In this document: piece after piece, positions 36,241 through 62,237 of the stretch
How positions within the stretch are numbered: position 1 is the first letter of the stretch
How the letters are laid out: each line of letters starts with the position of its first letter
Made by a program: the position numbers and the translations under genes
NCBI GenBank assembly: GCA_029851415.1
Contig: CM056743.1
Coordinates: 10,656,727-10,720,726 of the forward strand
DNA length: 64,000 nt
From: Eretmocerus hayati
Lineage: Eukaryota; Arthropoda; Insecta; Hymenoptera; Aphelinidae
Reading direction: 5' to 3'
Notes under the pieces: model-generated
Told to the model about the DNA's origin: nothing
The model's database searches: none
What the model saw: only the letters and a program-made list of their open reading frames with translations

Positions 36241-36270
36241 AATCGAATCGACATTTTTTGCACTTCAACA

Positions 36271-36330
36271 TAGCCGTGTATATATATATATATACATATA
36301 AAATATATGTTATATATATATATATATTTG
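36271..36330. repeat. (TA)n simple repeat
   Basis: Two runs of TATATA separated by ACATATAAAATATATGT. Simple low-complexity DNA. Confidence 0.8.
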
Positions 36331-37777: not shown

Positions 37778-38856
37778 TTAGAATAAGGGAGTTGATTGGA
37801 TACGCTTTGCATATTGTTCATTTTTCAAATATGATAGTATAACTTTCTCAATTGAGACCTGGCCTTGACTGTCTTCACTGATTCTCAGAGCTCTCTTCAC
37901 CATTTTCATAATGCACTGCTGATTAGCCTTTGGTTTGTATGTGGAGTCTGCAAATGTATTGTTCAATCATTCAATATTTGCTTGAAATAATTTGTATAAA
38001 ATTCATCAAGACCGTTCCTTCATTTACCTTGGTCCAGTGCATTGATTCTAGGAAAACTATGTCGGCAATGGCCAGTGCTCTTTGTTATTTCACAATACAG
38101 CAGAGTCTCATGGGTACATTTCTTGGGCAACAAACATCTTAGACACTTTGATGGTGCAGCACACATACCTCCTGGGAATTGTTATGGAAAATGTTACTCG
38201 GTTCAATTTCAGTTTGCAAGTGCATCATGCAAATGTAAGAATCGAGCACTCAATAATATGAATAGGGCAAAGCAATATCACCTCACTTATAAACTCAGCA
38301 AGTTCTGCTGTCATTTGGTTCAGTGTAGGGCTTACTACTTTTTCTGAACAGATGATTCCTTCCGACAACATATTTTCATTTTCTGTGATTGTGATTTGTT
38401 CAAACAAATTCATCAAGGGATACTCAAGAATCATTCTGAAACATGTAGTCTTTAGCAGCTTGCTTATAAGAGGTTCTAACAAGAGCAGAATAACTTGGTT
38501 GTCTTGAGACTTTTCCAATGATTGAGGTTGAGAACTGGGCATCTCCTGTGAATCAAATATAAGGTATGGAATCATGTGCAAAACTGAAAGTGAATTGGAA
38601 GTGTTTTCAAGGTTTGACTGGTTTGACTCACAGAAGAATCACTCAAGTTTAATTGAAGCATGACAGCTGATAATGTTTTCCTACTCTTCAATCAATTAAT
38701 TAAAGGAACTCATGAACTACACAGCCAACGCTTATTCTTTACAGCTGCCTTCTTTCTCCGAATTTTCAGTTTATACAACACAGAGCATATCAACAATGGC
38801 AACAATTTGAAAACCAAAACAGCTGATAGCATCAGTGCGGTACAAATCCGCATCAT
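37778..38856 (-). CDS. candidate small-exon gene for a membrane or secreted protein, ~214 residues
   Basis: Proposed exons on the minus strand: 38856-38721 (136 nt), 38666-38632 (35 nt), 38545-38282 (264 nt), two possible 20-nt microexons (near 38140 and 38045) and 37947-37778. Phases agree at every join. The first exon begins MMRICTALMLSAVLVFKLLP, an N-terminal hydrophobic stretch like a signal peptide or membrane anchor, directly after an in-frame stop. The 264-nt exon has good signals (GATTCACAG acceptor, GTGATA donor) and reads LLLLEPLISKLLKTTCFRMI, EFISE and so on. The last exon reads KMVKRALRISEDSQGQVSIE to a stop. The 35-nt exon, its weak GTAGTT donor and the microexons are the uncertain parts. 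No family recognised; the many-short-exon layout resembles fast-evolving secreted effector genes of some insects, which is only a comparison. Confidence 0.35.
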
Positions 38857-41012: not shown

Positions 41013-42366
41013 CTACTGGTTGTTGTGTCCAGCATCAGGATTGAATCCTGGATCACCATGATTTGCTTGGTTATTATCATCCTGGTTATTGTGCGGGCCA
41101 AAGAACTGTTCGGCCACTGTGTCCATCATCGTAAGAAAATTTCTGAATCTTCTCCTGGCCTGCATAAGCCTTCCAGCTCGGTTTCCTCTATGGTTATTGG
41201 GCTGATGATTCTGGTAAGGCTGATCTGCAAATAGAAATATTATCACTTTTACATGAACATTTCATTATTATAGTTTTATCTTAATCGCAAACTCAGCAGA
41301 ATATCAAAACTTATTATCATGAACACAGGAAAATTTCAGAAATGAATATTTGATATGCAGTAAAAACAAACATTTTGAGCTGGACAAATCAATTTCCAAT
41401 AAGATACTGGAAAGGTGATCAAAAATGGTCATCATCCAAGTAGGAACTTGAGTCAAATAAGAATATTTACATCTATTCTGTCCATGATGGCCTCGTTGAC
41501 CAACAACAGCTTCAGCTCTTGGGACACCTGCAGCACCATTCATATAAGCCACTCGACCAGCATCACCCACAGGAGCTGCTGCAGCTTCATCCCTTGGAGC
41601 AATTGGGGCAGCTCTATTTCCAAAAGCTATTGGAGGAGCTCTGCCTTGGAAAACTGCTGGATCGTCAGCTCTACCCCAAGCTGCAGGAGCCCTATTAGCA
41701 ACTCGAGGAGCAACCTCGACTGGTGGGACAACAGGAGCAGCCCTATCTCCTACAGCTGCTGGTACATCAGGGATAGCATCACCATTTACATGGTTAGCTA
41801 CAGCCTCAACAGGTATTGCTTGCCCAACTGGGGCCTCAAGCTCTCCAAGAGCTTGCCTGGCTGCAACAGCTCCTCCGTCTTCATTGATTTCCATCCTGGC
41901 CACTGCCATGACAAAAATCAGAAGATCAGAACTGAATGTGAAAGAGTCTGTACTTAACACAGTGAGTCTTTACAATCAATAGAGAAAGAAATTAACTTTT
42001 ATTTTCAAAATGTAATCAGTGAATTTTGGTTCCACGATAAGCCCAAAATGTTTTCCATTCACTCGATATAAAGAACAGGTATGTATTGGGACTAGGCATG
42101 TTGTGTTACAGAAATCAAGTGCATTTTTCATAGGCATTGAACCAACTCAAGCTAGAGACCTATTTTGGAAGAGATGGCAGGTTGAGACTCTATTTTGATC
42201 AAAATTTAAATCCATTCAACTATTTTGATTTGGGATAAACTAAGTGACAAAACTGTTCTCAAGGAGCTGAGCTGATGCAAAGTAATGGATGTAGATTGTT
42301 CTCTTTTTACAACTTACATTGATTTTCGTTTAGAAAGTTGTTGATGGCATCTAGGGCATTCTCCAT
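41013..42366 (-). CDS. three-exon gene for an Ala/Pro-rich low-complexity protein, 230 residues
   Basis: Exons 42366-42318, 41902-41471 and 41224-41013 join in phase with good splice sites (T|GTAAGT donor, CATGGCAG acceptor, T|GTAAAT donor, TTTGCAG acceptor). The protein starts MENALDAINNFLNENQLARM, passes through an alanine/proline/valine-rich middle (for example VGDRAAPVVPPVEVAPRVAN) and changes to a glutamine/asparagine/histidine-rich tail with RRFRNFLTMMDTVAEQFFGP, ending at a stop at 41013-41015. An ATTAAA lies about 155 bases beyond the stop. An acceptor-like CTCTTGCAG just upstream of the ATG suggests a further 5' untranslated exon. The middle looks disordered; no signal peptide or enzyme domain is visible. 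Function unknown. The clean phase agreement of three exons is strong evidence that it is a real gene. Confidence 0.65.
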
Positions 42367-44400
42367 AATCAACTGCAAGAGTCGAGGAAACGAGATAGAA
42401 TATTATCGCAACAGCGTGGAATTTAGGAGGAATATTGTTACCACGAGTAGTAATTAAGGATAATTCATTATTATTTATACAGTAATCAACATATTTACCT
42501 GTAAGTACCTCAGATGCTTAGAGATTACAATTAAACACTGTTTTTTGCGCGTAGCTTGCACGAGGCCACGTTCTGCTACACTTCTGCCAATCCATCGAGT
42601 CTAACCCTGCAAGCTTCACTTTAGGGATTTCTACAATCCTGAGTTGTACGTCGATGATTAAATGGGTGTGATTTGGAATTACTTCCGAACAGGATGAATT
42701 CAAAGCGGATTACCCAAATAATACAAGCAATTTATTGATATTTTGGTGACAAACATATTTATATCGAATCCAATAATTATATTTCACGTATGGATCAAGA
42801 ATGGTGAACGCACCCGAAACAGAGCTAGGACGCAAGCAAATCATCTGAATTCAATTCATTGTACAACGACCTTAGGTGTAGAAAGCTATCACAGTCCTCA
42901 TTTTATCTTTTTGATCACACTGTGATTTGTTTGACCGTCTCAAATCTTGTTTGGTGGATCAAGTTGGTCTTGTCCTGACCAATTAACTAACAGTGCCTTT
43001 CATCAATGATTAGACCAGATATCTGGATCCTCGTTGTATCTTAGTGGATGGTGGAGTATTGTTATTTATCAAGTATAAACAGTTACCTAGATCAGCTTGT
43101 TGATCTAACTCGACTACTTATCTTGAGAACTACCTGCAGTCCCACTGTTTGGGAATCAAGTGAGAGTTATTGTACACTCTGTGGAAAACTTGTCTTGATA
43201 TTCAACACTCCAGGTTAGTATTTCTTGTTATGCCCATCATGAAGTTTTTTACCCAACATCAAGTCTAACCCAACAACAAACAATTTTTATTTGAGCATTA
43301 CATGCACATCAACCCAAGACACTGGATTTTTTTCATGTCTGTTATGAGATATCTACCCAGGGTCAAACTTAAGCTCTACATAGGAAAGCTCATGACATGC
43401 ATATTTTTTCAGATAACAAGATTAATCTATAGGACCATTGACCTTCTACCTAATAATTTTCTTGGAGCTCAGATTTAGTGTATCAATCTTTCTCAAATCA
43501 GTTTTTAGTGTCGCATGTCTTGGATTCATAATGGAGTGAAGAAGCATAATAATCTCATTATTGACATCATTTTATTCATGCTGTCACCCTTCATCTAGGG
43601 TGACAACATCATGAGTTCATCATGCAATCATCCTTGATCATTACGCTCCAAGTGAAATATGTGGAAATGAAAATATAAACCATCGAAGGAGGGTGTTGGG
43701 ACCAAACATTTGAAAGGAGAAGGCATTCTAGTTAACTGAATGCAATCCAACAACTATGACTGATCCAGTTTTACATTAAGCTTACTGCAGAGCAAAATCC
43801 GATCCAAGTTCTTCATGTGATTAGTGCATCTGAATATCTTGAGTGGTTGGTTATATTCAGACTAGCATCATCAAGTTCAGTCAGACTTGCATCATCTTAG
43901 GTCTACTTGATCAAGCTCAGTCAGACTTGCATCACTCTGTCTTTTTGACATGCCACTGACTGACACCCAACTTTTGATCCATGAGGAGTACGAGCAGCAA
44001 AATTTTCAAGCGCTATGACCAAACAAGATTTTTAATCTCTTAATGTCCATCCTTGATAGACTGATGCAAACAATTTTATAGTTTTTGTCAGAGGTAAAGC
44101 AGCTGAGGGTGATAACCAATAAGGAGTGATTTCAAAGACTAATGTTTTTTGCATAAATGTGAAATTAGTGTCATTGAATAATTTCATCAAGAGCATGAGA
44201 CTCGCTGGCTTAGAATTCAAGATGACATTATTATTGGAGTGGCATGCCATCATTCGGTACCAAGAAGAAACTACAATTAACGCTTTCAGTTACTTTACTA
44301 TCTACAACCATCAATATTTTATATTGTTTTTATAGTCCAGGCAAGACCAGAAATGATGGATCTTTCCAACTTGACTGCGAAATAATTTCTTTGAATCCAT
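42367..44400. other. no gene seen; contains a short tandem duplication
   Basis: TCAAGTTCAGTCAGACTTGC and a near copy recur at about 43873 and 43912. Otherwise AT-rich DNA without a supported frame. Confidence 0.4.
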
Positions 44401-44484
44401 AATCTGAAGCTTTCGCTTCTTCCTGCTATTCTGATAAATTTTGAATTTTATCAAAATAGCAGGAAGAACCGATAGCTTCAGATT
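44401..44484. ncRNA. pre-miRNA-like hairpin (38-bp arms, 8-base loop)
   Basis: The arm 44401-44438 (AATCTGAAGCTTTCGCTTCT and on) pairs with 44447-44484 with about four mismatches, leaving the loop TTTTGAAT. Flanking GAAATAATTTC motifs at about 44380 and 44525 extend the inverted symmetry. Size, loop and scattered mismatches fit a microRNA precursor; a decayed MITE is the main alternative. The strand cannot be decided from the sequence. Confidence 0.35.
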
Positions 44485-46290
44485 TTTTATTCAACTAGTA
44501 TACTGGTATAGATTCTCTGTAAAAGAAATAATTTCTCGGTGGTTGACTGATATCAATGGCGGTTATCTACATGGAATCATTCAGTGCATGTTTGTCCTTT
44601 ATAAGGGCAGGGAGTTCCACATCTCATAATTCACCGATTTCTATGGATTCCATAGTTACTACTTTCTGAAACTATTTTTCGGATTTTGCAAGTTTATATT
44701 TCGCTGTCATAGCGTAGCTTCATTTTCGATTACCCCACAAATTTTTGCAACTTTGTAATATATTGTTTGTTTTATATATAGTAGAGAAATCTTCCACTTG
44801 AAATTTCATTTTTTGTGTATCCGTGTGATAGTTTGACCGGGGCTTCTCATGACAAATTGCGGTGGTTTTCACGACGCGTTATAACGTTTCACCTGAAGAA
44901 AAATTGCAATCCGAGTCTAAAGTCATGACCGAGCAACCCTGCGCGAAAAATGACAATTGATTATGAATTTTTGCGGACTGATACAAGCGTGGCTAAGCAA
45001 ATCAACATTTGTTCTAGTACCTATTGAACGGTACATGACTGAGAAACTCTTTGTTGAGGTACTCCTGTGAGAAACGCGGCCAGGTTTGAGTAATCAGATT
45101 ATTAACGAGTCGTGGAAATTACCCATATGTGCGGTGGAATACACTTTTGCTAAAGAGCAAGATAACGCTCATCAAAAAATTATCTTATCCGATTTATGTG
45201 ACTCTTCATGTTTGGTAGCAATTTCCTTTCACATGCTTTGCACAGGGGTGCGCTGTTAACAGAAAACTCAGTGCATTTGGTCTTCTACGTTAACTGGGTG
45301 CCTCTGTTGAATTCTACATTTAGAGTGAATTATTTCTCACCGAGCTGGAAGCGAGGGTCGGAACTGTAGGCAAGATTCACATTGTGCATGTCTTTTGCAT
45401 GCTCTATTCGACAAAGTTCCAAAAAAATAGAAAGTCGGTACCAAGACTAAACTTTTGCCCACACTTTGTCTCACTAGTACAATACGCAGGTATCCGGTAA
45501 CCGGATTCACCGCACAATTTGAAACCTAGTGTCTTGTACTACTTGCTATGCTAGGCAATATGTCGGGTGTGCAATCGGTATATCAAATATGTCTCGATCG
45601 TGTGAAATTCCGTGGCGACATATGGATGCTTGTCGATTCATTTTGTCCAAATTTTTCAGTTTTTACACGTGCAGTTAGATTCTTTGTGATATTCTAGGTA
45701 GTCACTTCACTGCATAATTACATGGAGCGTAGTATATTCAGTGCGCAGAGGCTCGGTTCAGTGTGTGAAAACGTACTTGCTGCGCTGTTGGCGGCTTACG
45801 CATTATTAGATCCAGGAGAAATTTTTAATTATCATGATCCCGCGAGCTAATAGCATTTCTTGATAGCACTCATGAGTACACGATTTCGTGAGCGATCTGA
45901 GGATCTCACGGATGTCGCATGCACTTCAGTCTAACTATATTTCCGATAACCTCGGAATCTATTGTCAGAGTCCGAACAATACCACAATTTTACCTTTCAA
46001 TATTACAACCAAGTTTGTTGAGTGCAGGGTGGTAACATGACTTATCAATATTGAAGATCTTTTGTTGACAGATGAGCTATTTTATTTTCAATGGTCTTGT
46101 TGGATGCAGTGCAAACTCTTTAACACATAGAAATGGTGGTTAGTCATTAAACAAAACTAGGAAATGGATATTTGTCATTGATCGATGTTTGAAGTATTCC
46201 ATCCTCAACCTTATTAATTGACTGACTGATCCATCTCCCACATACTTTGGGTGACCAAAATTATTTCTCTATTTGTAGTGTTGGTTAAAA
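44485..46290. other. no gene seen upstream of the giant gene
   Basis: No credible open frame and no recognisable Helitron terminus. Confidence 0.4.
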
Positions 46291-46293
46291 CAC

Positions 46294-46316
46294 TATATAA
46301 TTGATATACCTTCAGT
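46294..46316 (+). promoter_or_regulatory. possible core promoter of the giant gene
   Basis: TATATAA at 46294-46300 is followed by TTCAGT at 46311-46316, which matches the arthropod initiator consensus TCAGT. The spacing (about 20 bases) is shorter than usual. It lies about 135 bases before the proposed first ATG, and a pyrimidine tract (C-rich then CT repeats) follows at 46334-46380. Confidence 0.25.
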
Positions 46317-46333
46317 AAAAAATTTAGTCACAC

Positions 46334-46380
46334 TCCTCTCCCTCCTTCCCCCCCCCCCTTCTCTCTCTTTCTCTCTCTCT
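46334..46380 (+). repeat. C-rich / (CT)n pyrimidine tract
   Basis: Low-complexity pyrimidine run just upstream of the first proposed exon of the giant gene. Confidence 0.7.
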
Positions 46381-46449
46381 GCAACTTGATATTTTTTGTC
46401 TACGGGCGAATAAGAGTAATCAATCAATCAATCTCTCTCTTCCATTTCA

Positions 46450-49400
46450 ATGGTTCTGGACTCAGAGAATATTCCGAACGAGTGAGCCGACCATTCTCTT
46501 TCTTGTCCTAAGTTCCCACATTTTTTTCTAACGGTAGCCATCTTTTCATTGTTATTTGCAGCTGGCGTCGTGATATAGAGGAGCTCTATCGCAACTTGCG
46601 TGAGTATATTTTTGAACATTTTCAATTATTCAAAGAACAACACAGCTGGTAGCAGCTTTAAGCGCTCCAATAGTGGCCGCATTCTGCGCCCGACGCTGCT
46701 CAAAGCGCGTCAACGTTGCTGTGATAATATTTTCTAATTATCTGAAGATTCAAAATCAGATATCTTATTAATTGAAGACTCAAGATCAGTCACAGGGAGA
46801 TCTTTGTTTGTATTCATAGGGTCTTTGAACATTTTTTGGATCGTTTTTTGAAACAGAAATCCAGTAATGAAGGAAGATCTGTTCCGACTAACAAAAACTG
46901 ACAAAGAATTAGTCTCGAAAGGAGAGAAATTGGAGGACCAGCATGTCGATAAATTCCACCATCTAATACAAATTACTACATCTACAATACCTCGCTCTAC
47001 TTTGTATTGCAATAAACTTGAAAGAGTCACGCCAATTTTGCGAGGGACACAGCATGTACAAATCATCCATTGTTGTACTGATGGATGTGAGAAGTGTGAG
47101 GGTGGTCACTGGATATGTTTTTTCTATGATGGGGAATCGTTTTTTATTTATGATTCTTTGAATTTCAAATCATTATATAAAAATGCGGAGATGTTCTTGA
47201 GATCCCTATGCCCGTTCTTCGACGAAATACCTATCTACTATCCACAGGTCCAGTATCAAACTAATGGAAAAGATTGCGGTCCACACGCAATGGCTATGGC
47301 CACGTCAGTCATATTCGATGAAGATCCGTGTACAGTTGATTATAGTATGAAAGATTTGCGTCCCCATATTCTCGGGATGTTTCACAGAAATACTTTACAA
47401 TCTTTTCCGGGACGAAGAAGCGTGTTGAGGCAGAATCAAACCAATTTTTGTCCCAAACCAAAACTAACTTTCAACAAGCTGCCCTGTGGACTCCGGAGTT
47501 TCCCTCCGCTTGCCATCTATGTTTCAACCGAACAACAAAGCAACTCATACTTTGTGAGAGGACTGCCCAATCCTGATGGCGTGTCATGTTACGCAAACGC
47601 ATCGCTGCAGAGTATTGTACATTGTGAAAGTATGCAAAAGCATTGTTTAGTTGGAGCTCAACTGGATCAACTTTTTGAGAATATGAGAGAATACCTTTCG
47701 AACTCATTTGTTAACATTCTGACGTTGAGAAAGTACGCCGATGGAATTTTTTCACTCTCACGACAACAAGATGTGAGTGAATTCATGACATTTTTGTTTG
47801 ATAAATCTGAATATCTCAGGTCAAACTTCAAGCATACTCTCGTGATAAGAAGAACTTGTTTATCCTGTAAACTTGACCAAAAAACGGAGATGGATAATCA
47901 TGTTCTGATTGCCGACCTACCTGCCGATTTCAAAAGTGGCAATCTACAAACGATCATCGATCATAATCTCAACAAGTGGAAGCAAACTGATATAGTTTGT
48001 GGGGGAAAATTACCTACCGAGAAACAACTACAACTGAAGTGTGACGATCAAGGACGATGCTTGGGCAAAAGAGCAGAAAAATTAGATATTGTCTCAGAAA
48101 AAGATATGCTAGTGCTTTCCTTGAATATAATGCGTAGTGACAGTAGTGGTAATATCACGAAGGTACATGATATTTTTCTGCAACATCTTTCTGATAACGT
48201 TGTGAGTATTTATAATGATATGTATCGGATTGAAAGCGTCATCCTACATCATGGGCCAAGCGTCGATGCTGGTCACTATACATGTATACTACGTGGAATA
48301 AATTCTTGGATACGCGCAGATGATAGCGTACTCCATCACAGTACACTATTCAGAAGCCCTAGTGCGAATCCCTATATCGTTTTTCTGAGAAAAATCAATT
48401 GTCCCCGCCAATCATTAACTCCGATGATTTTGGAGCCGCACAAGAATTATGATTTGGATAAATCATGTCATCACCCGGTAGGACAAAACTCTAATTCTGA
48501 ACGAGTCAAACGTGTAAGAATTTCATCACCAATTCCTACCGAAAAATCAACAAAAAATATCAATTCTGAGGAATGTATTGAATCGATCTCAAACCACAGA
48601 AGTTATGCAACCGAGTTCTCACGCTGTCAGTCACGAGAATTTCAGCAAAATAACCTCAAATGTGGGAAGATGAATCAAAATATCGAGGTTTGCAGTAGAA
48701 AATTGATACAAAACTCCAAAGCGGTCGGAATTGTACAGAAAAGTGATGGCTTCATCTACCTCAGTCCAATCCAAGGTGGGACTACGCAAAAATTTTCAGA
48801 CAACCATTCCAGGGTAGGGAAAAATATTTTCACAAACAGTTCGATCCAACCTACTGTTGATCGATTAAGTACTACATCGACTGACTACCCAACACTTCCT
48901 GACGATGGCGCATCTCGATCTGAGAGACAGTCACTTTTGCAGAATTTTCTCTTCCCTCGCGGTAGGCCGAATGTACAGATCAAGGATCAATCAGAAACAA
49001 ATATCGACAGTATTAAGGTTGTCGGGGGCCCATATCGGAATGTCACCAGTCCTTGCGTTGGATTGGTAAATACTCATGTTATACCAACGAAAAGGAAAAG
49101 GGATTCAGACGATGTTCTTGGTAAACGTCATAATTATACTTTTCATGACAGTTGCATGTATGAACAACGATGTCGTGAGCAGGAGACAAAGATTACTGGA
49201 TTGAACTCGTTCACTATTTTGACACCGAGAAATAGTTCGGCCCAAAATGATCAACAGAAAAATTTCGCTTCTTACCGTTCCCCCTTGTCATACGATACTA
49301 CGCGTGAAGCGGGACTAAATTCGCTGGTACTACATCCAATTATGAGTGAGCTACACAATATTGGTGGCTCCTCAAACGGACCTTGCATAGCTATCTCAAA

Positions 49401-52400
49401 AAAGGAGAAGAGAAAACTATCACCAGGCAATATTAGCCTGCTGGAAGGTGAGATAGTCAACAAAATGAAGTTGAAAAAAATGACGTCCATCACGGATTCT
49501 GCATCAATGCGCAAGCGATCCATGGGTGGAAAATGCCGTGTTCCTGATGGAGTCATCCAAAATCAATCGTATGATGGCATCGAAAACTATCGTATTAAAC
49601 GTAAGAGGGAGCGTGATAGAGCTTCATACCTCAGATGCAGGGATAAAATACTTGCAAAGAAGAAGGACTACTATCAACTCAATAAGATGAACATTTCTGC
49701 GAAGAAGCGCTTCGCTTATACATTGAACCGAGAATACTACAAACTCCAATATAAGAAAAACAAAGAAAAAATTCGTATAAGCAGAAATATCAGGAGTCGG
49801 AAAGCTAAGAGAGCCAACAACCGATCAGCAAAACTGAGAGCAGCAAAGAAAATCAGTAAAAAATATAGGAAACTGCGGCGTCGTCTAGCAAAATATCGAA
49901 GCAATTTTCACGAAAAGGATAAAATTTCCAATAAACATCCTTCTGAAATATACCGAGTTGGGTTCAGGAAGAAAACGGATACCTTATTGAGTGACAGGCA
50001 GAAGATAATTGATCGGGTGATGGAGAGGTCCGATTCGCATATGACTCTTGATAAGTTACAAGTCGACCGGGTGGTGACCCGGTGTATACATATCAGAGAC
50101 AGTCATATGAAACAGTTGAAAAAGAATTTAAAAAGTACCCAGAAAAAATGTGAACTTGCGATCTCAAAATTAGGTGATGTTCCCTTATCAGAAAATGTCA
50201 AATTTGCTATCTCCATACTCTGCGGCCGATCTGGCCATCGTTCTTCCACGGAGCCATACTTTCTTGAAACAGTCTACAACACCGACCGTTTCAAACGCTG
50301 GTTAGAAACAGATTTGGACGAAAACGGGCCTGAACCATGTAAAACTGTACCGGAAACCATGTCGCATTCAAGAGTTGTCGATGAAAATCTGATAGAACCA
50401 CTCTCAGAATTACCAAGTGAATCGGTAGATGATGTGTTTATTATCAATGATAGAGGACAAGTTACCAATATCTTACCGCCAATTCCGACGCGTGGTAAAT
50501 CTGATGGATTTTGGGTATGCGATGATTACTGTAGGGAGGTTGATGTCGATGCATTGCAAGACATAAAAGATTTATACTATGAAGTGAGTGTTATATCTTA
50601 TAAAAATTTGGCCGAATTCGTCTCTAATTTGGACGTGTGCGCTGTCCAATCCCGAGCCATGGGTAAGAAAGGCCACCCTGTTACATGCTACGCAGAACCT
50701 TTGTCTTGTAAATCAAAATTCTTGAAACTAGATCTTCTCTCTTATCATTTCCCTTATTTGCGGACTATGAAAAGATCTATTCACCGTATTAAAAACTCTT
50801 ATCAGACTATAATTGATATCGGAAACGCCCTTGAGGAGGGAAGTTTTACTGAATTGAACAAAATCTATGAGGATGGAAAGAACATTTTTGTTACTTCGGA
50901 AGCAAAGCATGCAGAAATATGTTTAGATGAAGATAAGCTTCATGATATGTACTCCGCGGGTATTCAAAAATTCAAAGAAATAGATATGGATCCACCAAGG
51001 ATCCCATGCGTTTCGTGTGAACGTCTCTGTACGAGTAAATACACTACTCCAGTCGTAAAACATTTGGACCCTACAATTTCTGAGTGTCTTCTCCTTGGGG
51101 ATGAGATCCCAGGAAATGCAGAGTTGAGCTATTGGAAACAATTACAAAGCTTGTATGATCCTGAGGAGTTCAATAACTCTTTCATTTGTAATCATTGTAG
51201 TGGTCATCTAAAGAAAAATCGCCTACCATCTTTATGTATTCTGAATAATCTTCGCTCTGACAAAGTTCCGCAAGAGATAAGAACATTGAATAGATTTGAG
51301 AAAATGTTGATTCAACGAGCTAAAGCATTCCAGTGTGTTGTCAAATTGGAAACAGTCCAGAAGAAGAATATCCCACATCATATGAAGCTTGATCAAGTTA
51401 AAGGTCGAACCTTCCATTTACCGCTTCCTTTGGAAGCTACTCTGGACAAACTCTGCAAAGATACGGACCCTATTGACCTTAATCATGAATTATTTGTTCT
51501 GATTCGAAGTAATCCAACCAAGAAAAAAGTTATTTGGGAAGACTATGTCGATATAAAAAAAATTTGGAATGCTCTCAAATGGTTGAAAGCTAACAATCCT
51601 TTGTATGCAAACATTCATCTTCCCGGGACGCCTGATGAACTCCTTACGCATTTAGCACAATCACACTTGGAGTATCCTGAGGATTCGGGAGATGGATCAC
51701 GTTCCAAAGAGCGCACATCGAATGATGGGTCTCACTGTTTTGCTCAAGATGTTAATTGTGAAGCAAGCCGCTCGAATTGTTGCCTAGCTGATGGCGGACC
51801 TATGAACAACCCAACGGACTTCAGTAAAAAGACTCCTGAAATTGCAGTGGACCATCCAGTATCTGCAAATAATCTGCAGTCGGATAATATGAAACCACAA
51901 TTGAGTCCAAGTATCGATCGCTGCAACAATAATTCTGATGTTAAAACGGTTACTGATGCCCATATCAAGCACAACGATAATAATCCAGCCATCCCTCGGG
52001 TAAAAAGCCCAGCGTTGCTCACGCAGAAATCAAAACTCGATATATACTATGAAGATTTTACTATTTATCCATTGCATTCGAAAGTCATTAATGAGAAAGA
52101 TACAACTTTGTATCAAATGTTAGAAGTATACGCTCCTGCTATCGACAGTCGTGCGAAAGATTTGGATCTGAAATGTTTCCCCGAACTATTTCCTCTTGGT
52201 CAATGTGGGCAGTACTGTGAGCGTCTGGTGAATTTGAGAGATAGCGATTATTATAAATCGAGATTAATTTCAAAACATAGTCAATTCAGATTGAATATTC
52301 CTTTCCTCTTTCACGCCCTTCATAATCATAACATGAGGCAGTTGAGCGCTGGAATTTTCCACAAAACCAACGTTTGTCAGCCAGGTGCTGCATTCACGGC

Positions 52401-55400
52401 AAAGTCTTCCATCGAGTCGATGGAGGAAGAAGTATTTGAACAAAATCTACACACAATCTTCTCACGTTTGCGGGGCACCGAAGCTTATTGGTCACAAGTT
52501 AGGAATGAACTCAATTGTATGGTGAGAGAGTACGGGCCAATAACATTCTTCATTACATTCAGTCCGTCTGAATGGATGTGGTCAGGAATAGCTGAATATA
52601 TATGTGAGGTGAATGGGTGGGATCCATCAGGGAAGAATATTAGTGAGTTGATTACTCTAGATCCGACTTCAGCAGCTAGATATATTGAGAATAAATTCAA
52701 GGCTGTTATGGCATACATCAATTCCGATGCTCGTCCAATAGGGAAAGCGCGCCACCATCATTTTTCACGGGAATACCAAGGACGAGGTATTCCACATTTC
52801 CACTGTTTTTTCTGGATCGAAGGTGCACCAATTTACGGATTATCCACCGACGACGAGATACGCGAATTCATTATGAAATATATCACATGTCGTATACCTC
52901 CTCATTCTAGCCCTGAGTTGAGACGGAAGGTTTTAGCGAATCAGTTACACAAGCATAATGATTATTGTATGCGTAAGAAAAAAACTGCTGTCGGATTCAA
53001 ATGCGCGTGTCGTTTCTGCTTCCCTTGTACTGTCACAGATCATTTCATTCTAAGATCTGTTACGCTTGCAATGGCCAATCGTAAGAATTTGAGGAACAAT
53101 AGCAGATTCTACGATCTACCTCGTAGTGAAGATGAGAGAAACATAAACGACTACATTCCCGCGCTGATGTTAGTATGGGAAGGTAATATGGATGCTCAAT
53201 TCATAGGAGAATCTTCGTACCTTTTGACAAAATATGTGACGAGTTATGGAACAAAAGGCGAGAAAAGTCACATCGATTTGAGTGATATAAAGTCTAATAA
53301 GAGTCTGTACAGCAGATTGTGGTCCATAGGAACCCGGAGTTTGCAGTATCGAAGTTGCGGTTCTATCGAGGCTGCCGATACACTACTAGGTCATCCTTTG
53401 CACGGTACAGATCGGGCCACTGTTTTTAGATGGTTGGATGTAAGGGTCATCCGTAGTAGAAAACTCAAGCCTTACAAAACCATTCAAAATCTTGCCCCAG
53501 ATTCGACCGATTTGTTTTTCGACTCATTCATCGATACGCACTATCCAAATCGTCCGGCAGAACTGGAATCTATGTGTCTCTATGACTTTGCCAGATGGTT
53601 CGATATTCACAAAGATAAACCGAAGTGCAAGGAGGAAAAAAGTGGTAAAAAAATGTTTTATGAAATGAAACACGGGCTATATTGCAAGCAAAGATCGAAC
53701 CCTTACTTGATTAATCATTATCGCAACAACCCTGCCAATCAGCCGGAAGAATATTATCATGCTTTATTATTACTATTCCAACCCTGGAGGGACGTCAATG
53801 AGTTGTTAGGGAAGGAACAAACCTACACTGAAGCTTTTCAATCAAAACGCGTTGAGTTAGTGGAAGCTATGAAATACCATGATAAGTTGGAAACCATTGA
53901 AACCGCGAAAAAACATGCTGAAGAACTCATTCAAGCAGAGCTCTTAGCCGCAGATAATGAAAATGAATCTCAAAATATACCGGATGGCTGTGTACCGATC
54001 GAAGCTGAATGCGCTATGAGAGATTTTGATGATAATCTTAAAAAAGTTGTCTTGGATGAAAACCTCTTAGGAAAGTCAATAGAGTCACTTAATTCGGATC
54101 AGAGAAGAGTTTTCGACGATGCTACCTCAACCATAGAAAACGGAGAAAAAATTGTGAGGATGTTTGTTAGTGGATGTGGCGGCACGGGAAAAAGCTTCCT
54201 CATAGATGCATTAGTTTTGTGGATGAAACTCAAGCGCCAGAAAAATACTGCTGTGGCAGCGCCCACCGGCGTGGCGTCACATAAAATCAACGGCCTTACT
54301 CTTCATAGAATATTTCAGTTGCCAGTTGAAATAGGTCGAACTCCCAATTATAAAGAGTTATCAGGTCCCGTATTGAAGAAAATCAGGCAAACATTGGAAG
54401 GTGTAGACTTGGTAGTCATTGACGAAATATCAATGGTTTCTAATATCACACTTCTATTCATTCATCTTCGATTGGCGCAGATTTTTGGGATAGGAGACGA
54501 TCCAGATGGTTGGTTTGGGAAGAAACATATCATCGTTTTTGGTGATCTGTTACAGTTACCTCCGGTCGGTGAACCGTTTGCTATCAAAGAAGTGGAAAGA
54601 AAAGTGCTCGATGATTGCGTAGGTGCTATGGAATCGATTAATTTATGGCATCTATTCACTTACCACGAACTGACTATCAATGAGCGACAAAAGAATGACG
54701 AACAGTATTATAATACTTTGCAACGCGTTCGCATTGGAGCCCCCAATGACTCAGATATTGCAATTCTTGATAAGCGTAGGATTAACTTCAAACATGATCA
54801 TTACCCTGCAACAGTTCAAGAATTATGCGCTTACATTGATACTCTTCCACCTGATACTGTGTGCTTGTTGCCTTCAAGGCAAATGTATTTTATCTTGAAC
54901 GGCGCGATGTTGCAAAGAAACGATACAGACGAAATCAAGTTGGTTGCTCAAGATGATTATCAATGTCCGAAGAACCTAGACAAGGCAATCAGGAAGGTTC
55001 TCGACGATGATGATAAGAATGACTGTGGTATAGAAAGAGTGATTACTCTGAAAATTGGATCCAGGGTCATGGTACGGAGAAATATCAATGTATCTACAGG
55101 GCTGGTCAATGGTGCGATCGCCAAAGTCGTCTCGATTTCGAAGGATAAAAATGATTTGGTCACTCATGTGAATCTTGAGCTAACTTCTGGGTTACAGCAC
55201 GCTCTGGAACGTTATGAGTATAAATTTTTCGTTTCAGACAGAATTTTCATCGTGCGAAGACAGTTCCCCATAACCCTGAGTTATGGTATCACAATTCATA
55301 AGAGTCAAGGTTTGAGTTTGAAAAATGTTGTGATTGATGTGGGATCAACGATATTTTCACCTGGCCAAACGTATGTGGCCCTATCGAGAGTTACTGAATT

Positions 55401-56427
55401 GAAGGGGTTGCATCTCATTAATTTTGATCCAACTAAGATCATGGCATCTGATGAAGCTATTCTTGAATACAATAAGCTGAGGCAACTATATCGTCCGGAA
55501 CTCGGTCTCTATCAAATATGTAAATCTATTGATCCTCTCAAGGCGGTGCGTGATGTCTACTGGGCTCCATCAAAACTCCTCATGTCTATCCACAAGGAAA
55601 GGATCGAGGACAACATCACAAGAGTAATATTCCGGGGACTGCCCGACGATCATTGTATTTCGTGTTACGCGAATACTGTTGTTCATGGTCTTTTCCATTT
55701 AAAAACGATTAAAAGCCTTCTCGTTCAACAGAAGTCATCTGATGCTTTGAGAAGTGCCTTCAATCAATACATTGGCAATACCAGTGTAGATCTGGAAGCT
55801 TTCAAACGGTCAGTTGGACAAGAATTCGCTTCGACCACTCAGCATGATGCTGTACATTTCCTAAAACAGGTTTGTGCTAAGTTCAACATTGTCGACAATG
55901 TTATAGGCTACAGATGGTCATCAGTGGTCAGGTGTAGGAGTGATTCTTGTGAAGGTAGATATGAATCTGGATTGAGACCTGAGAGCATTCTTGAATTGGT
56001 TTTGCCAGAAAATCGTGACACCTTTACCCTACAAGAACTATTAAACAGTTTTGTCGATAAATGGCGTGAAACCACAGAGATTTGCCAATGCCAACGTAAA
56101 AAAATTGAAACAATTACTCTAGAACTACCAAAACCGATTCTTGTATTGAAAGTACCTGTTATAGAAATAAATAATGGGCAAGTTAACAAGACAAGGGAAA
56201 TAAGAATCAACGGAGTGCCACAAGGCAAAGTATCGATTTTGGGGAAGCATTACCAGGTTATGAGTGGTATATTTCTCCACCACAATCAGAAATATCCTTC
56301 AGGTCATTACCTCAATTTTCTCCGTGACAATAAAAATTGGTTCGAGGTTTCTGGCAGCGTTGCTCGGAAAAGACAATGGCCAAAGAGCGCTCGAGATATA
56401 TATTTGATCTTCCTTGAGAGGATTTGA
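46450..56427 (+). CDS. giant Helitron-type replicase-helicase with Ulp1 and two USP-like domains
   Basis: A single exon (46865-56427) encodes 3186 residues from ATG 46867 without interruption. Two short upstream exons fit in phase: 46450-46481 and 46562-46599, with GTGAGC and GTGAGTAT donors and a TTATTTGCAG acceptor. They give MVLDSENIPNDWRRDIEELY joined to the main frame for 3210 residues in total. Domains, numbered from ATG 46867: Ulp1-type protease (about 40-170), USP-type peptidase (232-512), Lys/Arg-rich stretch (908-1022), zinc-binding DUF6570-like region (1370-1530), Helitron-like N domain and HUH nuclease (1760-2135), PIF1/RecD-type helicase (2405-2860), second USP-like domain (2915-3186). 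HUH nuclease plus helicase is the hallmark of Helitron rolling-circle transposons. Intact length implies recent activity or host selection. No canonical polyadenylation signal lies within 200 bases of the stop. If the upstream exons are not used, translation starts at 46867, after an in-frame stop at 46849. Confidence 0.9.
46984..47376 (+). other. Ulp1/SENP (C48) cysteine-protease domain of the giant protein
   Basis: Residues about 40-170. The catalytic arrangement His-Asp-Gln-Cys is visible: H81 in EGGHWICFFYDG, D96 in FFIYDSLN, Q131 and C137 in QTNGKDCGPHAMAMA. Ulp1 enzymes remove SUMO or related modifiers from proteins or mature them, and related domains occur in several DNA transposons. 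All four positions are intact. Confidence 0.8.
47560..48402 (+). other. first USP (C19) deubiquitinase domain of the giant protein
   Basis: Residues about 232-512. The Cys box reads GVSCYANASLQ with C241, followed by QQDVSEFMTFLFD, a CLSC zinc-finger half and later C pairs, and the His box VDAGHYTCILRG with H470. The third catalytic position is kept in WIRADDSVL (D485/D486). USP enzymes cleave ubiquitin from substrates. The domain is about 280 residues, close to the minimum for the family. Confidence 0.8.
49588..49932 (+). other. Lys/Arg-rich repetitive stretch of the giant protein
   Basis: Residues about 908-1022 are dominated by Lys and Arg with recurring Tyr, in a loose repeat of the type KKKDYYQLNK, REYYKLQYKKNKEK and KKYRKLRRRLAKYR. 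It is probably helical and nucleic-acid binding, and may act as a nuclear-localisation region; similar basic arrays occur in other transposon proteins. Confidence 0.55.
50974..51456 (+). other. zinc-binding DUF6570-like region of the giant protein
   Basis: Residues about 1370-1530. Cysteine pairs in PCVSCERLC (C1381, C1384) and FICNHCSGHL (C1441, C1444) are followed by NRFEKMLIQRAKAFQCVVKL. This layout precedes the Helitron-like N domain in many animal Helitron proteins. The family name is from memory. Confidence 0.55.
52144..53271 (+). other. Helitron-like N domain and HUH endonuclease of the giant protein
   Basis: Residues about 1760-2135. The metal-binding HUH motif is in GRGIPHFHCFFWIEG (H1977, H1979). 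The tyrosine region YLLTKYVTSYGTKGE (Y2118, Y2123, Y2127) supplies the candidate nicking tyrosines. In Helitrons this nuclease nicks and rejoins single-stranded DNA during rolling-circle transposition. Confidence 0.85.
54079..55446 (+). other. PIF1/RecD-type helicase domain of the giant protein
   Basis: Residues about 2405-2860. Walker A is GCGGTGKS (2436-2443), Walker B is VVIDEISMVS (D2519, E2520), followed by FGDLLQLPPV, and the C-terminal motif is TYVALSRVTELKGLHLI (about 2835-2851). It is a 5'-3' superfamily 1 helicase expected to unwind DNA at the nicked transposon end. Confidence 0.9.
55609..56424 (+). other. C-terminal second USP-like domain, altered active site
   Basis: Residues about 2915-3186. 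The Cys box HCISCYANTVVHGLF (C2933) and His box YPSGHYLNFLRD (H3147) are present, as is the ending DIYLIFLER, matching the end of the first USP (PYIVFLRK). Where the first domain has WIRADDSV, this one has WFEVSGSVA, so the Asp/Asn that completes the triad is absent. It may bind ubiquitin without cutting, or work as a dyad. The sequence is clearly diverged from the N-terminal USP. Confidence 0.7.
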
Positions 56428-56625
56428 AAGCATCAATTTTTAATGGATCGTGGCAAATAACAGCTACTACCACAATGATACGTAACTCGTCGATTTTCTA
56501 CATAAAATGCCGTATAGGGAAAACTTGGAATCATCTAATATATGGTTCAGTTTTACTCTACTAAGCACGCATCTGCCCTACTTCATAACATCAGCATACC
56601 TTAGTCACATTATCTTACTGCTAAG

Positions 56626-59600
56626 TTACTGACTATAAGCGCATGGTACAGCAATTTGATATGAATTGTTAGCCACTGTAGAGGATCGATATTTGTCGTG
56701 GACTAGTTGAATAAGTGAGATCGGGTCTCGGGCGCCACTCGAAACCCCAACTATAGCTAAACCCGAAACATGATCATTCCATAATGAATCACTATAATTA
56801 GATATCTCAACATCATTCCAGTTGAGATCATGACCATCCGCTCTTGAATGATATGACCATTTCCGCATACAAGTAGTGAAATCTCCCCCCCCCCCCGCTA
56901 CTTTTTCCAAAAGTACTGCTTGGCGAGTATGAGAATGTTCCACTTACATCACATTGTTTAGATGTGTATCCTTGTGTGGTACAAGTGTCTCAAGCCCGTG
57001 GATATTTACATTACCTACAGAATCACAGCGGTGTCACATGCTTTTTATTGATGAGTTGAGACTAATGATTCTCACCCTCCCCGATATTACTGATTCCAAC
57101 ATTCCATCCCATACTATACGTTCCTTCGCGTCTGTTGCTGTCAAAACTACGCTTGGAGACTGACGCTACTGACAATAAATTACTTACAATGTCAAATCGA
57201 AAAGAATCTTTGCTGGTGTAGTTTAAACTCTTGACAATCATGAAATCACATGCGAATCAGCTGACGAGTGCCAGAATCATCGCAATCCGATGATACAAGG
57301 AAGGGTCTGAGTTTCGAAAAAAGATAACTTTATTGGAAGGGAAGATACAATGTCAAATCAAAAAGATTCTTTACTGTTACAATTTAAACTCTTGAAAGGC
57401 ATGAAATCACATGCTAATCAGCTGACGAGTACCAGAATCGTCGCAATTCGATGATAAAAGGAACAGCCTGAGTCTCGAATAAAGATATCTTCCTTGGAAT
57501 GTGAAGATACAATATCCAATCGGAAAGAGTCTTTACTGGTGTAATTTAAACTCTTGGCGGGAATGAAATCACATGCAAATCAGTTGACGAGTGCCAGAAA
57601 CGTCGCATTCCAATGATGATGAAAGGAATAGTCTGAGTTTCGAGAAAAAATAACTGTCTTGGGATAGGAAGATTTGAAACCTCTCTGATTGGTCCAAATC
57701 ATTTGCACAATAATTTGAGTCCTGGCTGAAAAACCCGGAGAATAATAAGAGGAGAAAGCAGTTGGTGATGATCGATCCGTCATGATTACATCTTTACAAT
57801 CATCTGCCTATGTCACGTCTTAAAAGGAGAGTATCATGTCTCACTCATTGGTGGAAAAATACCACTTCTACATACATTTAGATTCTATACTATGGTTATA
57901 TTATGCCATAGAAGTTTGGATTTTGGTTTCTCTTAAGAGTCAAAAACAAAATGGAGATGTATCGACTTATTGCTTGACACACCTGATTTTTCACCATCGG
58001 CCACCGGTATTCTCACATACTTGCCGAAATCTCCACAAATCGCGAGATGACGACCTTTCGTATTATTAGAGATAGTGCGTTCTTACTCTCTTCCAATCCC
58101 GTCTGCTACGATCTGTAGTTCCTTCCATTGGAGAACCGGTGTTTGCTTCCGAACACCTTCATATTTTACTGCTTAACACGAGGCCGTAGTCGGTCGCCAT
58201 GTTGAACATATGATGAGATAGACAGCAATTTGTTCTGTGGAAATCTCGAATTTGATCTAATTGAATCACACGGTATTTTCGTATGCATCGATACAATAGA
58301 TGTCAGAATTGCACTATGGAGAGTAAATCCATCAAAATCAGAATAGAAAATTCAGAACGGCGGCGGACTGCAGCCTCACCTTAAACTACTTTTGTTTGTT
58401 CGTTGTCTTTATAGGCTCTCAGAATAAGGAATGTTCCAATCTTGACCGCCCCTTACAGCATTATTTTTGAATTACATGAGTGAGTTTCCAAAGTATGGCT
58501 ATAGGATTTTAACTGCAGAATCCATGAGTGCTTGTTGTACAACTATAGCGATTTCTTCGGAGCGAGCTAAGTAATATCACACTTGTCAATGATCACATGA
58601 CGCTGCATATCCAGAGCTCTTGCATGGGACTTGATTGTCTGCAGAAAGTTGAAAGAATTTTCATCATCTTTCGATCAACAAAGCTGACAAGGACAGAAAC
58701 TCGAGTGATTTGTGGAGATTTCGGCAAGTATGTGAGAATACCGGTGGCCGATGGTGAAAAATCAGGTGTGTCAAGCAATAAGTCGATACATCTCCATTTT
58801 GTTTTTGACTCTTAAGAGAAACCAAAATCCAAACTTCTATGGCATAATATAACCATAGTATAGAATCGGAATGTATGTAGAAGTGGTATTTTTCCACCAA
58901 TGAGTGAGAAATGATACTCTCCTTTTAAGACGTGACATAGGCAGATGATTGTAAAGATGTAATCATGACGGATCGATCATCACCAACTGCTTTCTCCTCT
59001 TATTATTCTCCGGGTTTTTCAGCCAGGACTCAAATTATTGTGCAAATGATTTGGACCAATCAGAGAGGTTTCAAATCTTCCTATTCCAAGACAGTTATTT
59101 TTTCTCGAAACTCAGACTATTCCTTTCATCATCATTGGAATGCGACGTTTCTGGCACTCGTCAACTGATTTGCATGTGATTTCATTCCCGCCAAGAGTTT
59201 AAATTACACCAGTAAAGACTCTTTCCGATTGGATATTGTATCTTCACATTCCAAGGAAGATATCTTTATTCGAGACTCAGTCTGTTCCTTTTATCATCGA
59301 ATTGCGACGATTCTGGTACTCGTCAGCTGATTAGCATGTGATTTCATGCCTTTCAAGAGTTTAAATTGTAACAGTAAAGAATCTTTTTGATTTGACATTG
59401 TATCTTCCCTTCCAATAAAGTTATCTTTTGATGACGAAGTCATCTTCTCGCGCGTTGAGTTTTGTCTAACATGTGGACACGAATATTCGTAACGCGTGGA
59501 TGCGCGCGCAACTCCCCATGCGTCGTGCGTGTTATAGTGCAGCTATGTGTGAGTAGGAGTATTACGAAGTAGTGAGATGATATGCAAGCATTGGCAAGCA

Positions 59601-62237
59601 TTGGCATGATGGTATTGCAAGTCAAAGTGCAGATCAAAAAGCTAGTAGTGCCCTATTGTATCGCAACTCCTGCTGTGGTGCTTGCGATTTTCAATATAAG
59701 CACAGCAAAAATTGTCAGGAATTGGATTCAATTCATTGTGTAATTCAGCACACCTCTGTTAGGATTTCTGATTATGATTCTGGTTCTAGAGGTGGCTCAT
59801 TTAGTATAATCTAGGAAAAATGTGGTACGGTTAGCCCGTTCACCGAGCCGTTCACTGCAAGTCAACTTTTCGTAATTTTATTTGAGCCATGAACCGAACT
59901 ATACCGTATTCCGGAAAAATGTCTGTACGGTTGTAAATTCTTCTTTCATATAAGGTAAGTGTATCCAATTTGCCTCTGTACCTGACTTGCCCCCCAATGC
60001 CGATCTCGGGGATGGGCACTCCTTGGACCCCCGGGAATTTTTTTTCACGTTTGCTATGTTAAAATATGAGAAAGTAAATAGTTTGCGTCGACCTCGAATC
60101 ATTCCTGCGTTCTCCAGAAAATTTGAAATGATTTTTCTATTTTTCGTGATTGCTTAGCTAAGAAAGCATCGAAGGAATTGCGTTCAGTAAAATTATTGCC
60201 AAATTTTTTGAGTTCAACCAACCTTAACATACCTTAGCGCATTTGATTCCTTGTTTCAGAACCTGTAAAATCTGTTTTTCAAGGTTGCAAAATTCGGGTC
60301 TAAGCTAATTTATGTGCAAAACACGGAGACGATTTGTAAACAAGGATGCTAACATCGGAGTGTACTCAACATGCCCCCATATGTTTATCTCGAGAGGGTG
60401 TGCAATACGACTTTTTTACCACTCAGAATGTGTTTATCACGTCAAAATAGGTCGGAAAAGGTGTTTTGGACCGGCGATTAGCTCCAAATGTGCGTGCACG
60501 GCGATAAAAACACTCTATCGCCGATTTCCATCATTTATTTTGGAAGAATTGAGACAGTTCGGCTCCAATCCATCAAAATTAGACGTAACTTAGTGCATTT
60601 TGAAGGTCCTAAAACAAGCTCCAAAATGAGCTAAACCACTACGTTGAATATCGTTGAAGTAGACCAAAGTTATTGAGAAAATGGCTTAATGAGGGCAAGT
60701 TGTGTACACCATTTTGTAAACTCTAATAAATCACTTGAAAAAATTAAGACAGCTCGGATCCAGATGATTGACTTTGGACGTAGGTATTTGAATTCATTTT
60801 GAAGGTCTCAAAATAAGCTTTAAAATGAGCTAAAGCACATTGAAAATTGTTGAGGTAGACCAAAGTTATTAAGAAAATGGCCTTATGGGGGCAAGTTGGG
60901 TACCCTGACCTTATCATCTATATTGTTGGAGAAGTAATCGTCACGAAAGATGAGAAAATCATCGGAAATATTTTTGAAGCAAATATGAGCCGGCGAAAGA
61001 TTGAAATTTGGGAAATTGTTGGTCTCACTAAATTCTGAGTGACTCAGCCATCTAACCCCATAATTAACGGAAATAAATATTACGTAGCAAAGAAAATTGA
61101 AAAATTGAGCTACATATAGCAAATTTATTGAACAAACTCCTATGACTTCGTCATCAACCGCGCGTTCTCTGGACACACCATTTTTTTTTCGAAACTCAGA
61201 CCCTTCCTTGTATCATCGGATTGCGATGATTCTGGCACTCGTCAGCTGATTCGCATGTGATTTCATGATTGTCAAGAGTTTAAACTACACCAGCAAAGAT
61301 TCTTTTCGATTTGACATTGTAAGTAATTTATTGTCAGTAGCGTCAGTCTCCAAGCGTAGTTTTGACAGCAACAGACGCGAAGGAACGTATAGTATGGGAT
61401 GGAATGTTGGAATCAGTAATATCGGAGAGGGTGAGAATCATTAGTCTCAACTCATTAATAAAAAGCATGTGACACCGCTGTGATTCTGTAGGTAATGTAA
61501 ATATCCACGGGCTTGAGACACTTGTACCACACAAGGATACACATCTAAACAATGTGATGTAAGTGGAACATTCTCATACTCGCCAAGCAGTACTTTTGGA
61601 AAAAGTAGCGGGGGGGGGGGGGAGATAGCCAATTACCTGAAATGTGAGGACAATCCAATGACGATGTTTGCAGTTCGCTTCCAATGCCTATAAGTTCTCC
61701 TTGGAGTTCACTCTTGGACCTATTCCAGAGTTCATGCCCATACAGCATTGCATCAAAAGCCCCTCTAACTGAATGGTCACAGATATAACTCTGGGGACAT
61801 CTGAGTACATACCCATATTCTTCTCGCAACTCCTGATTGCTTCTTTTTATCTGAACACATTTGCATTCAATCTGAGAGTTGTGATTCTTCCGCTGTTCTA
61901 CTTGGGCTTGCGAAGCCCCCAACATCCTTCTGAATGATTCGAAGCTGATCCGAACAAGCAGTATATTCCTTTTCAACCAGAATCAACTTTCCACAATATT
62001 CTGCTCACTACTTCTTGAAACTGCTGAGGTTGACTCACTCATCAATGAGCATGTCAGTTATCATTACAGACCCTACTTGGGATTCCTTGTAATTGTTTGT
62101 GTACTCGGATCCCTCAACCGATTTGAGTCTATATCTAAGGTCACTGTTATGACTCGATTGGATCACATCCCCAAAATTGAAAATCCTGTTCTCCAATCTG
62201 TCCAGCATCTCATCGTTGATAAAAGTTTCAAGGTAAC
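56626..62237 (-). CDS. spliced gene of unknown function with a 4.75-kb intron formed by a fold-back element
   Basis: Exon a (62237-62039) reads YLETFINDEMLDRLENRIFN and ends MITDMLID plus GA at a GTGAGT donor. Exon b (61929-61637) follows an ATTCAG acceptor and completes the split codon: ERMLGASQAQVEQRKNHNSQ, later ELREEYGYVLRCPQSYICDH, to SSLDCPHIS at a CAG|GTAATT donor. Exon c (56882-56626) matches in phase: DFTTCMRKWSYHSRADGHDL through AIVGVSSGARDPISLIQLVH to a stop at 56626-56628. Exon b is polar and partly coiled-coil-like. Family unknown; upstream exons lie to the right of 62237 and are unresolved (a possible one at 63374-63223). The a-b join is strong. The b-c join rests on phase alone, because the acceptor follows a run of G instead of pyrimidines. 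The gene converges with the giant gene, ending 200 bases from it. Confidence 0.5.
57187..57660. repeat. three ~161-bp tandem subrepeats in arm A (mirrored in arm B)
   Basis: Units start near 57187, 57349 and 57509 and share GATACAAT-TC-AATC, TTTAAACTCTTG, ATGAAATCACATGC, GACGAGT-CCAGAA and CTGAGT-TCGA. The mirrored set lies at about 59060-59429 and 61185-61330. Confidence 0.75.
59430..61180. mobile_element. ~1.75-kb insertion inside fold-back arm B
   Basis: The arm is continuous at the equivalent place in arm A (near 57320), so this block was inserted later. It starts GATGACGAAGTCATCTTCTC followed by GCGCGTTG, and near its end has TATGACTTCGTCATCAACCG followed by CGCGTT, so similar short motifs lie at both ends; each also contains the small palindrome GATGAC-GTCATC. 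It contains copy 3 of the TA-flanked element, making three layers of nesting. No transposase is encoded. Confidence 0.7.
59953..60911. mobile_element. non-autonomous terminal-inverted-repeat element, copy 3
   Basis: Same family as 1256-2085 and 19682-20516. It starts AGGTAAGTGTATCCAATTTG and ends GGGGGCAAGTTGGGTACCCT followed by GACCT, with TA on both sides. At 959 bp it is longer than the others because part of the 3' half, including TTAATG-GGGCAAGTTG-GTAC, is duplicated (near 60690 and 60885). Confidence 0.75.

Follow-up and report, generated by a model that had tools for sequence, protein, structure and literature searches.

A Helitron of the wasp Eretmocerus hayati with an N-terminal Ulp1 and USP pair and a second, probably decaying USP fold in its transposase

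What would a transposase gain from carrying three peptidase folds directed at ubiquitin and its relatives? The question is raised by a 64,000-nucleotide stretch of DNA (hereafter the window; contig CM056743.1 of assembly GCA_029851415.1, positions 10,656,727 to 10,720,726) from Eretmocerus hayati, a parasitoid wasp of the family Aphelinidae that is employed in whitefly control (passages of PMC10482854). A single uninterrupted frame of 3186 codons on its forward strand (46867-56427) encodes an Ulp1/C48-like domain, a ubiquitin-specific protease (USP, family C19), a DUF6570 domain, an HUH Rep nuclease, a PIF1-type helicase and a second USP fold. This frame and this domain order had been proposed in an earlier note made from the sequence alone, and profile searches bear them out. 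The note's identification of the element as a Helitron also stands, given that Pfam searches and residue alignment find an HUH Rep (two His plus Tyr) fused to a PIF1-type helicase. The Rep residues H1977, H1979, Y2123 and Y2127 are invariant in the eight copies aligned, and the AP (apurinic/apyrimidinic) endonuclease family that marks Helentrons was not found by Pfam in the 3186-residue chain at E-values up to 10. The answer that we consider reasonably probable is that this is a complete Helitron whose N-terminal Ulp1 and USP domains would, during rolling-circle transposition, free the transposase itself and nearby repair proteins of ubiquitin and of a ubiquitin-like tag, and whose C-terminal USP is probably decaying.

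Assignment of the peptidases to families C48 and C19, likewise claimed in the earlier note, is confirmed by Pfam matches of both USP folds (UCH for the N-terminal one; Table 1) and by a profile search in which the closest solved relative of the Ulp1 domain is SENP8 (3e-4). Profile by profile the outcome is uneven, since C19 is found at both ends of the protein and the C48 profile matches four of the nine rows tested, the window's own row not being among the four. Residues 1-520 found no match when searched among proteins of 1752-5575 residues, and single-sequence searches of the PDB returned nothing beyond one chance-level match. SENP8 is a NEDD8 protease, and because it is the closest solved relative, the modifier removed by the Ulp1 domain is not fixed as SUMO. 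Thus, of the term "SUMO-protease" used previously, the Ulp1/C48 family holds and the SUMO specificity, which came with the family label only, is unsupported; SUMO is a possible substrate, and NEDD8 equally so.

The genome searched comprises 692,130,109 bases in 17 contigs, and residues 1712-3186 match at least 41 stretches of it, with 32 of 897 candidates scored. The ten best matches, namely the copy in the window and nine fetched copies (c2-c10), were read and fall into six groups. All three peptidase domains are present in each of the ten, and all domains lie in one frame in seven (window, c2, c4, c6, c7, c8 and c10), the frame being broken in c3, c5 and c9. The Ulp1 tetrad (H81, D96, Q131 and C137) is kept in all ten copies and thus in all six groups. 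The triad of the N-terminal USP is also kept in all ten, c10 having Asn for Asp. At the C-terminal USP, Cys and His are retained together in four copies (window, c2, c3 and c10), and one or the other has been lost in the remaining six, which represent three of the six groups: Cys is replaced by Ser in c4, c5, c6 and c9, and His by Arg in c7 and c8. The third position is Ser in eight copies (Ser3162 in the window) and Ile in c7 and c8; Ser as the third catalytic residue occurs in some USPs, for example USP30. The two USP-like domains reported earlier are therefore both present as folds, but they are not equivalent, and the C-terminal one is probably losing its activity and turning into a pseudo-enzyme. 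Its inactive forms remain in frame, and the c5 domain is still 61% identical to that of the window, which fits a conserved pseudo-enzyme.

Ratios of nonsynonymous to synonymous substitution rates (dN/dS) were calculated for the window and c2, most between-group pairs being saturated and within-group pairs too little diverged. For this pair, dN/dS is 0.16 for each of the two N-terminal peptidase domains, Ulp1 and USP, and 0.15 for the C-terminal USP; the values for the other regions are 0.03 (Rep), 0.12 (helicase) and 0.46 (linker at residues 520-1000). The comparison shows apparent purifying selection on the C-terminal USP in a pair in which both copies have Cys and His, and for that reason the low value alone is no proof of selection on the inactive forms. 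These data also bear on the idea that the peptidase domains are passenger host sequence without function for the element, an idea that draws on the capture of host sequence by Helitrons (passages of PMC6431247). Passenger sequence would not be expected to keep the Ulp1 and N-terminal USP residues intact in ten of ten copies from six groups with a dN/dS of about 0.16, nor to recur, as Ulp1- or USP-like domains do, at the same ends of related proteins; it is disfavoured, and we regard it as extremely improbable. As a separate observation on the same pair, the helicase region (54067-55416) is 94-96% identical between the window and c2, whereas the first 1050 codons are only 56-82% identical, a contrast which suggests that copies have recombined with one another.

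A search that used the C-terminal half of the chain as query yielded 27 relatives. A C-terminal USP-like domain is present in nine of 32 proteins (P0001-P0007, P0010 and P0032), according to a local USP model built from the window, P0001, P0003, P0004 and P0005, whose rows match it by construction. Of these four proteins, P0004 and P0005 have a UCH match in Pfam and P0003 has none (E up to 0.01; P0001 was not included in this check). The set of peptidases varies among the relatives: P0003 combines a pair of Ulp1 domains at the N-terminus with a USP-like C-terminus that is recognized by the local model only and has no aligned catalytic Cys, P0006 combines a USP-like domain with OTU, and in P0011 and P0020, from the ctenophore Mnemiopsis, the C-terminal peptidase is a C48. 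The N-terminal Ulp1 and USP pair also occurs in E. hayati proteins, among them P0028, of 686 residues, which matches residues 1-520 at 53% over its full length. P0028-P0031, all from E. hayati, do not correspond to any of the ten copies read. Since the architecture occurs in ten of ten copies, the N-terminal pair in annotated E. hayati proteins and different peptidase sets in relatives, the chain is not a one-off, and the earlier note needs amending on this point. Apart from the window, four E. hayati proteins were the only ones in which the N-terminal USP itself was detected, several of the relatives being fragments without an N-terminus. A viral source was also considered and ruled out: viral contigs were scanned and no relative was confirmed, none of 18 pattern-matching stretches in one scan having passed tblastn.

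Several relatives of 2700-3800 residues show no peptidase family, and this bears on whether the peptidases instead process the chain as a polyprotein, separating the Rep-helicase from accessory parts. A long and poorly conserved linker (residues 520-1000, the region of highest dN/dS above) does separate the domains, which is consistent with such processing. USP and Ulp1 families recognize folded ubiquitin-like proteins, and because no ubiquitin-like domain appears among the Pfam matches of the 3186-residue chain, this explanation is weakened further; we hold it to be very unlikely.

To trace the origin of the N-terminal USP, 13 USP domains were placed in a tree. Four N-terminal domains cluster in a single clade (support 100/100), which is grouped with three C-terminal Helitron USPs (88/94). 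This topology favours a duplication within the element as the probable source of the N-terminal USP.

In the mechanism that we propose, the HUH Rep would nick the element at its 5' TC, with the helicase peeling off one strand, both as in studied Helitrons. The N-terminal USP would protect the 3186-residue transposase from proteasomal degradation, and the Ulp1 domain, acting where the USP does, would take off SUMO or NEDD8. On the evidence of the tree, the N-terminal USP would be a copy of an ancestral C-terminal USP, which would then have begun to lose catalytic residues and may by now have only a structural or binding role. Helitrons generally are described as moving by rolling-circle replication, for which they use a Rep-helicase, and as entering between A and T without duplication (passages of PMC6431247 and PMC4067079). 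In vitro activity on ubiquitin has been shown for tegument-like deubiquitinase domains from zebrafish Helitrons, and the authors suggest that these domains stop proteasomal degradation of proteins needed for transposition (passages of PMC9741609); by analogy, we infer the same role for the N-terminal USP.

Self-protection and action on host repair are both plausible for these peptidases. The second could be taken further, such that they act mainly on the host: by removing ubiquitin, SUMO or NEDD8 from repair factors or chromatin, both where the element leaves and where it lands, they would lift silencing or steer repair. The presence of three modifier-directed domains within one DNA-handling protein is consistent with this, as is the suggestion, in the discussion of PMC2836005 (a source seen in passages), that DNA-repair factors may be among the targets of the Ulp1 and OTU domains of transposons. 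A host target is not visible from sequence, however, and fusion to the Rep-helicase favours action in cis, so that a mainly host-directed role seems to us unlikely.

Several points weigh against a transposase protected by its own N-terminal peptidases. By itself the Ulp1 domain of the window matches no Pfam family, and its match to SENP8 is modest. The AlphaFold2 model of residues 1-520 is poor (predicted local distance difference test score, pLDDT, 40), and the N-terminal folds thus rest on profiles. The dN/dS values come from one pair only, in which the N-terminal USP has a synonymous divergence of 1.5, near saturation. The USP tree has no host USP outgroup, leaves five of its ten inner branches open and has several long end branches, and for these reasons the direction of the duplication is not proven. 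Finally, the C-terminal USP of the window keeps Cys and His and could be active in this copy.

Both ends of the Helitron were located. Pairwise comparison of c4 with c6 and of c7 with c8 fixes the 5' end as a TC, a perfect hairpin (Table 1) and TGGCGAGTAT, and the TC start TCAAAAGG, a canonical Helitron feature, is present in the window, c4, c6, c7 and c8. The 3' end, conserved in the ten copies, consists of ATACTCGCCA, which is the reverse complement of TGGCGAGTAT, followed by a second hairpin and a G-run ending in AGA or a variant; the CTRR of canonical Helitron 3' ends was not found, the G-run with AGA or a variant standing in its place. Hairpins at both ends together with a 10-bp inverted repeat are a Helitron2-type feature, and the 5' repeat sits after the 5' hairpin and not within it as in Helitron2. 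Judged by its ends, the element thus appears to mix canonical Helitron features (5' TC, A^T) with those of Helitron2 (two hairpins, short inverted repeats), and to do so without CTRR and without a Helentron endonuclease. The base before the 5' end is A in four of the five copies with both ends and G in c8. Our scripted rule for the 3' end accepted only tails with a T after them; inspection by eye shows such a T in each of the ten copies. A 5' end placed 2.7 kb before the frame by the comparison of c2 with c3 was ruled out, the ends of c4/c6 and c7/c8 lying much further out; the similarity of c2 and c3 starts at an internal TC, and these two copies may be truncated at the 5' side.

Copies c4 and c6 are 99.84% identical over 21.6 kb and c7 and c8 99.93% identical over 18.8 kb, end to end and in different places, and c2 and c3 are 99.0% identical over 15.1 kb. 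These near-identical pairs suggest that the system moved recently. Copy c4 is inserted within c5, and the uninterrupted target, GGAATATAAGAA, is present in c6. The insertion reads as precise, apparently between A and T and without target-site duplication, although its 3' junction may be off by a base, the element end GGAAGAT resembling the target GGAATAT. A head-to-tail rolling-circle tandem of c4 and c5, at which the junction hinted, was ruled out by the upstream sequence, which places c4 inside c5. When the 34-base 5' end was searched with up to three mismatches, 1296 genomic matches were obtained, compared with none for the reversed control, and hence many short derivatives probably share this end. 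At 62310 of the window, about 0.7 kb past the element, there is another 5' end of this type, in diverged form.

A long inverted repeat follows the stop codon in all ten copies and forms their 3' end, and its interpretation as an unrelated insert was ruled out on these grounds. Uninterrupted palindromes have arms of 676-978 bp that are 99.0-99.9% identical, and the arms of the window total about 1.17 kb. The right arm of the window is interrupted by an insertion of about 1.75 kb (59430-61183), which is bounded, exactly or nearly so, by a 14-bp inverted repeat. Between copies, the arms of the window and c2 are 77-78% alike, and among c2, c4, c7, c9 and c10 matches are confined to short patches and roughly the terminal 50 bp, with some pairs giving nothing at threshold. 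The arms of c2 and c3 differ at 14 columns, eight of which lie at the outer end and were set aside (arm cutting, G-run). At five of the six internal sites the variant is common to both arms of a copy, and the arms therefore seem to evolve together, by conversion or by copying of one from the other, as far as so few sites can indicate; in the pairs c4/c6 and c7/c8 the arms are too alike from copy to copy for this test. A description of such a palindromic Helitron end was not found among the listings that our literature search returned.

These features can be joined in a broader account, which we put forward tentatively and think may well prove wrong. The element would belong to a lineage with exchangeable ubiquitin-family proteases, in which a C-terminal deubiquitinase was copied to the N-terminus, beside Ulp1, and the original became a pseudo-deubiquitinase that binds without cutting; the transposase would thereby be armed against two modifier systems, and the 3' end would be a self-copying palindrome, its two arms being renewed whenever the element moves.

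Table 1. Coordinates of the Helitron and its parts (positions in the window)
Feature	Position	Strand	Description
Whole Helitron	35920..61625	+	25,706 bp; flanks AGTTTGAAAA^TAGCCAATTA; last 3' base uncertain by about one base
5' terminus	35920..35953	+	TC, hairpin AAGGCGC-GGTA-GCGCCTT, then TGGCGAGTAT; 34 bases identical to ends of other copies
Second gene, two exons	41013..41909	-	exons ~41909-41471 and ~41224-41013, limits set by eye; product of ~216 residues, Ala/Pro-rich at first and basic after that
RepHel-peptidase frame	46867..56427	+	3186 residues, open reading frame
Ulp1/C48-like domain	46867..47421	+	residues 1-185; H81, D96, Q131, C137
N-terminal USP (C19)	47539..48396	+	residues ~225-510; C241, H470, D485; Pfam UCH 3.5e-18
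DUF6570	51214..51621	+	residues 1450-1585; Pfam 8.2e-18
Rep (HUH) domain	52408..53247	+	H1977, H1979, Y2123, Y2127; Pfam Helitron_like_N 6.9e-18
PIF1-type helicase	54088..55476	+	residues ~2408-2870; Pfam 3.4e-25
C-terminal USP fold	55624..56424	+	residues ~2920-3186; C2933, H3147, S3162; Pfam 6.8e-6 plus model and fold matches
Left arm, 3' palindrome	56881..58041	+	99.3% inverted match to right arm, in two pieces
Right arm, inner piece	58707..59429	+	inverted match to left arm
Later insertion in right arm	59430..61183	.	absent from left arm
Right arm, outer piece	61184..61625	+	its end is the 3' terminus of the element (ATACTCGCCA, hairpin, G-run, AGA)

A second gene lies within the element and is transcribed divergently from the RepHel-peptidase frame. 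Its second exon matches c7 by tblastx, like-looking frames occur in c4 and c7, and splice sites are present; its first-exon frame has no Pfam match. Upstream of the RepHel-peptidase frame, alignment of five groups reveals a partly conserved block (46540-46750) with a splice-donor-like GTRAGTAYA, which suggests a possible 5' leader intron. Outside the element, a 339-codon open stretch (14200-15219, forward strand) resembles the C-terminal part of a hAT transposase.

Deubiquitinases recur in transposons and herpesviruses. In this one genome, at least six copy groups with the three peptidase domains point to active sites that have to be kept (those of Ulp1 and the N-terminal USP) and to one that can be dispensed with (that of the C-terminal USP). 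Because the copy groups mark the kept and lost active sites in this way, which tag is removed, from which substrate, and whether removal is needed for movement can now be addressed with ordinary constructs. The earlier note knew of no described element with Ulp1 and two USP-like domains, and we found no Ulp1 and USP Helitron in print in the open-access literature, outside which most subscription papers lie; the main texts of the E. hayati genome papers do not contain the word "Helitron". The earlier note's statement that OTU proteases occur in some Helitron proteins was correct (passages of PMC9741609).

The nearest known systems are the zebrafish Helentrons DrT1 and DrT2, which carry tegument-like (VTD) and OTU deubiquitinases (passages of PMC9741609). 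As in E. hayati, a Helitron-class Rep-helicase is fused to one or two deubiquitinase domains, which in DrT2 belong to two different classes. The folds differ, being VTD and OTU there and USP and Ulp1 here, and the zebrafish elements have a C-terminal AP endonuclease, a family that Pfam did not find in the wasp protein. The Helitron2 group (passages of PMC3627910) shares hairpins at both ends and short asymmetric inverted repeats; the E. hayati element differs from it in having the 5' repeat just inside the hairpin, and in its TC start and A^T entry, which are those of canonical Helitrons. Ginger1, Mutator-like and Trichomonas vaginalis transposases with Ulp1, OTU or C19 likewise join a transposase chain to a ubiquitin- or SUMO-type peptidase, although they belong to other transposase classes and Ginger1 has either OTU or Ulp1, not both; the passages of PMC2836005 on transposon peptidases, from which these cases are taken, name no Helitron with C19 or Ulp1. 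Among the relatives, P0003, P0004, P0006, P0011 and P0020 share a Helitron Rep-helicase with terminal peptidases, and P0003, P0004 and P0011 have DUF6570 as well. None of the five shows an N-terminal USP; P0004, for which a C-terminal USP is the only peptidase named, and P0006 look cut at the N-terminus. Thus, Helitrons with deubiquitinases were already known, and what appears to be new, within the open-access literature searched, is the module of Ulp1 and USP accompanied by a second, decaying USP.

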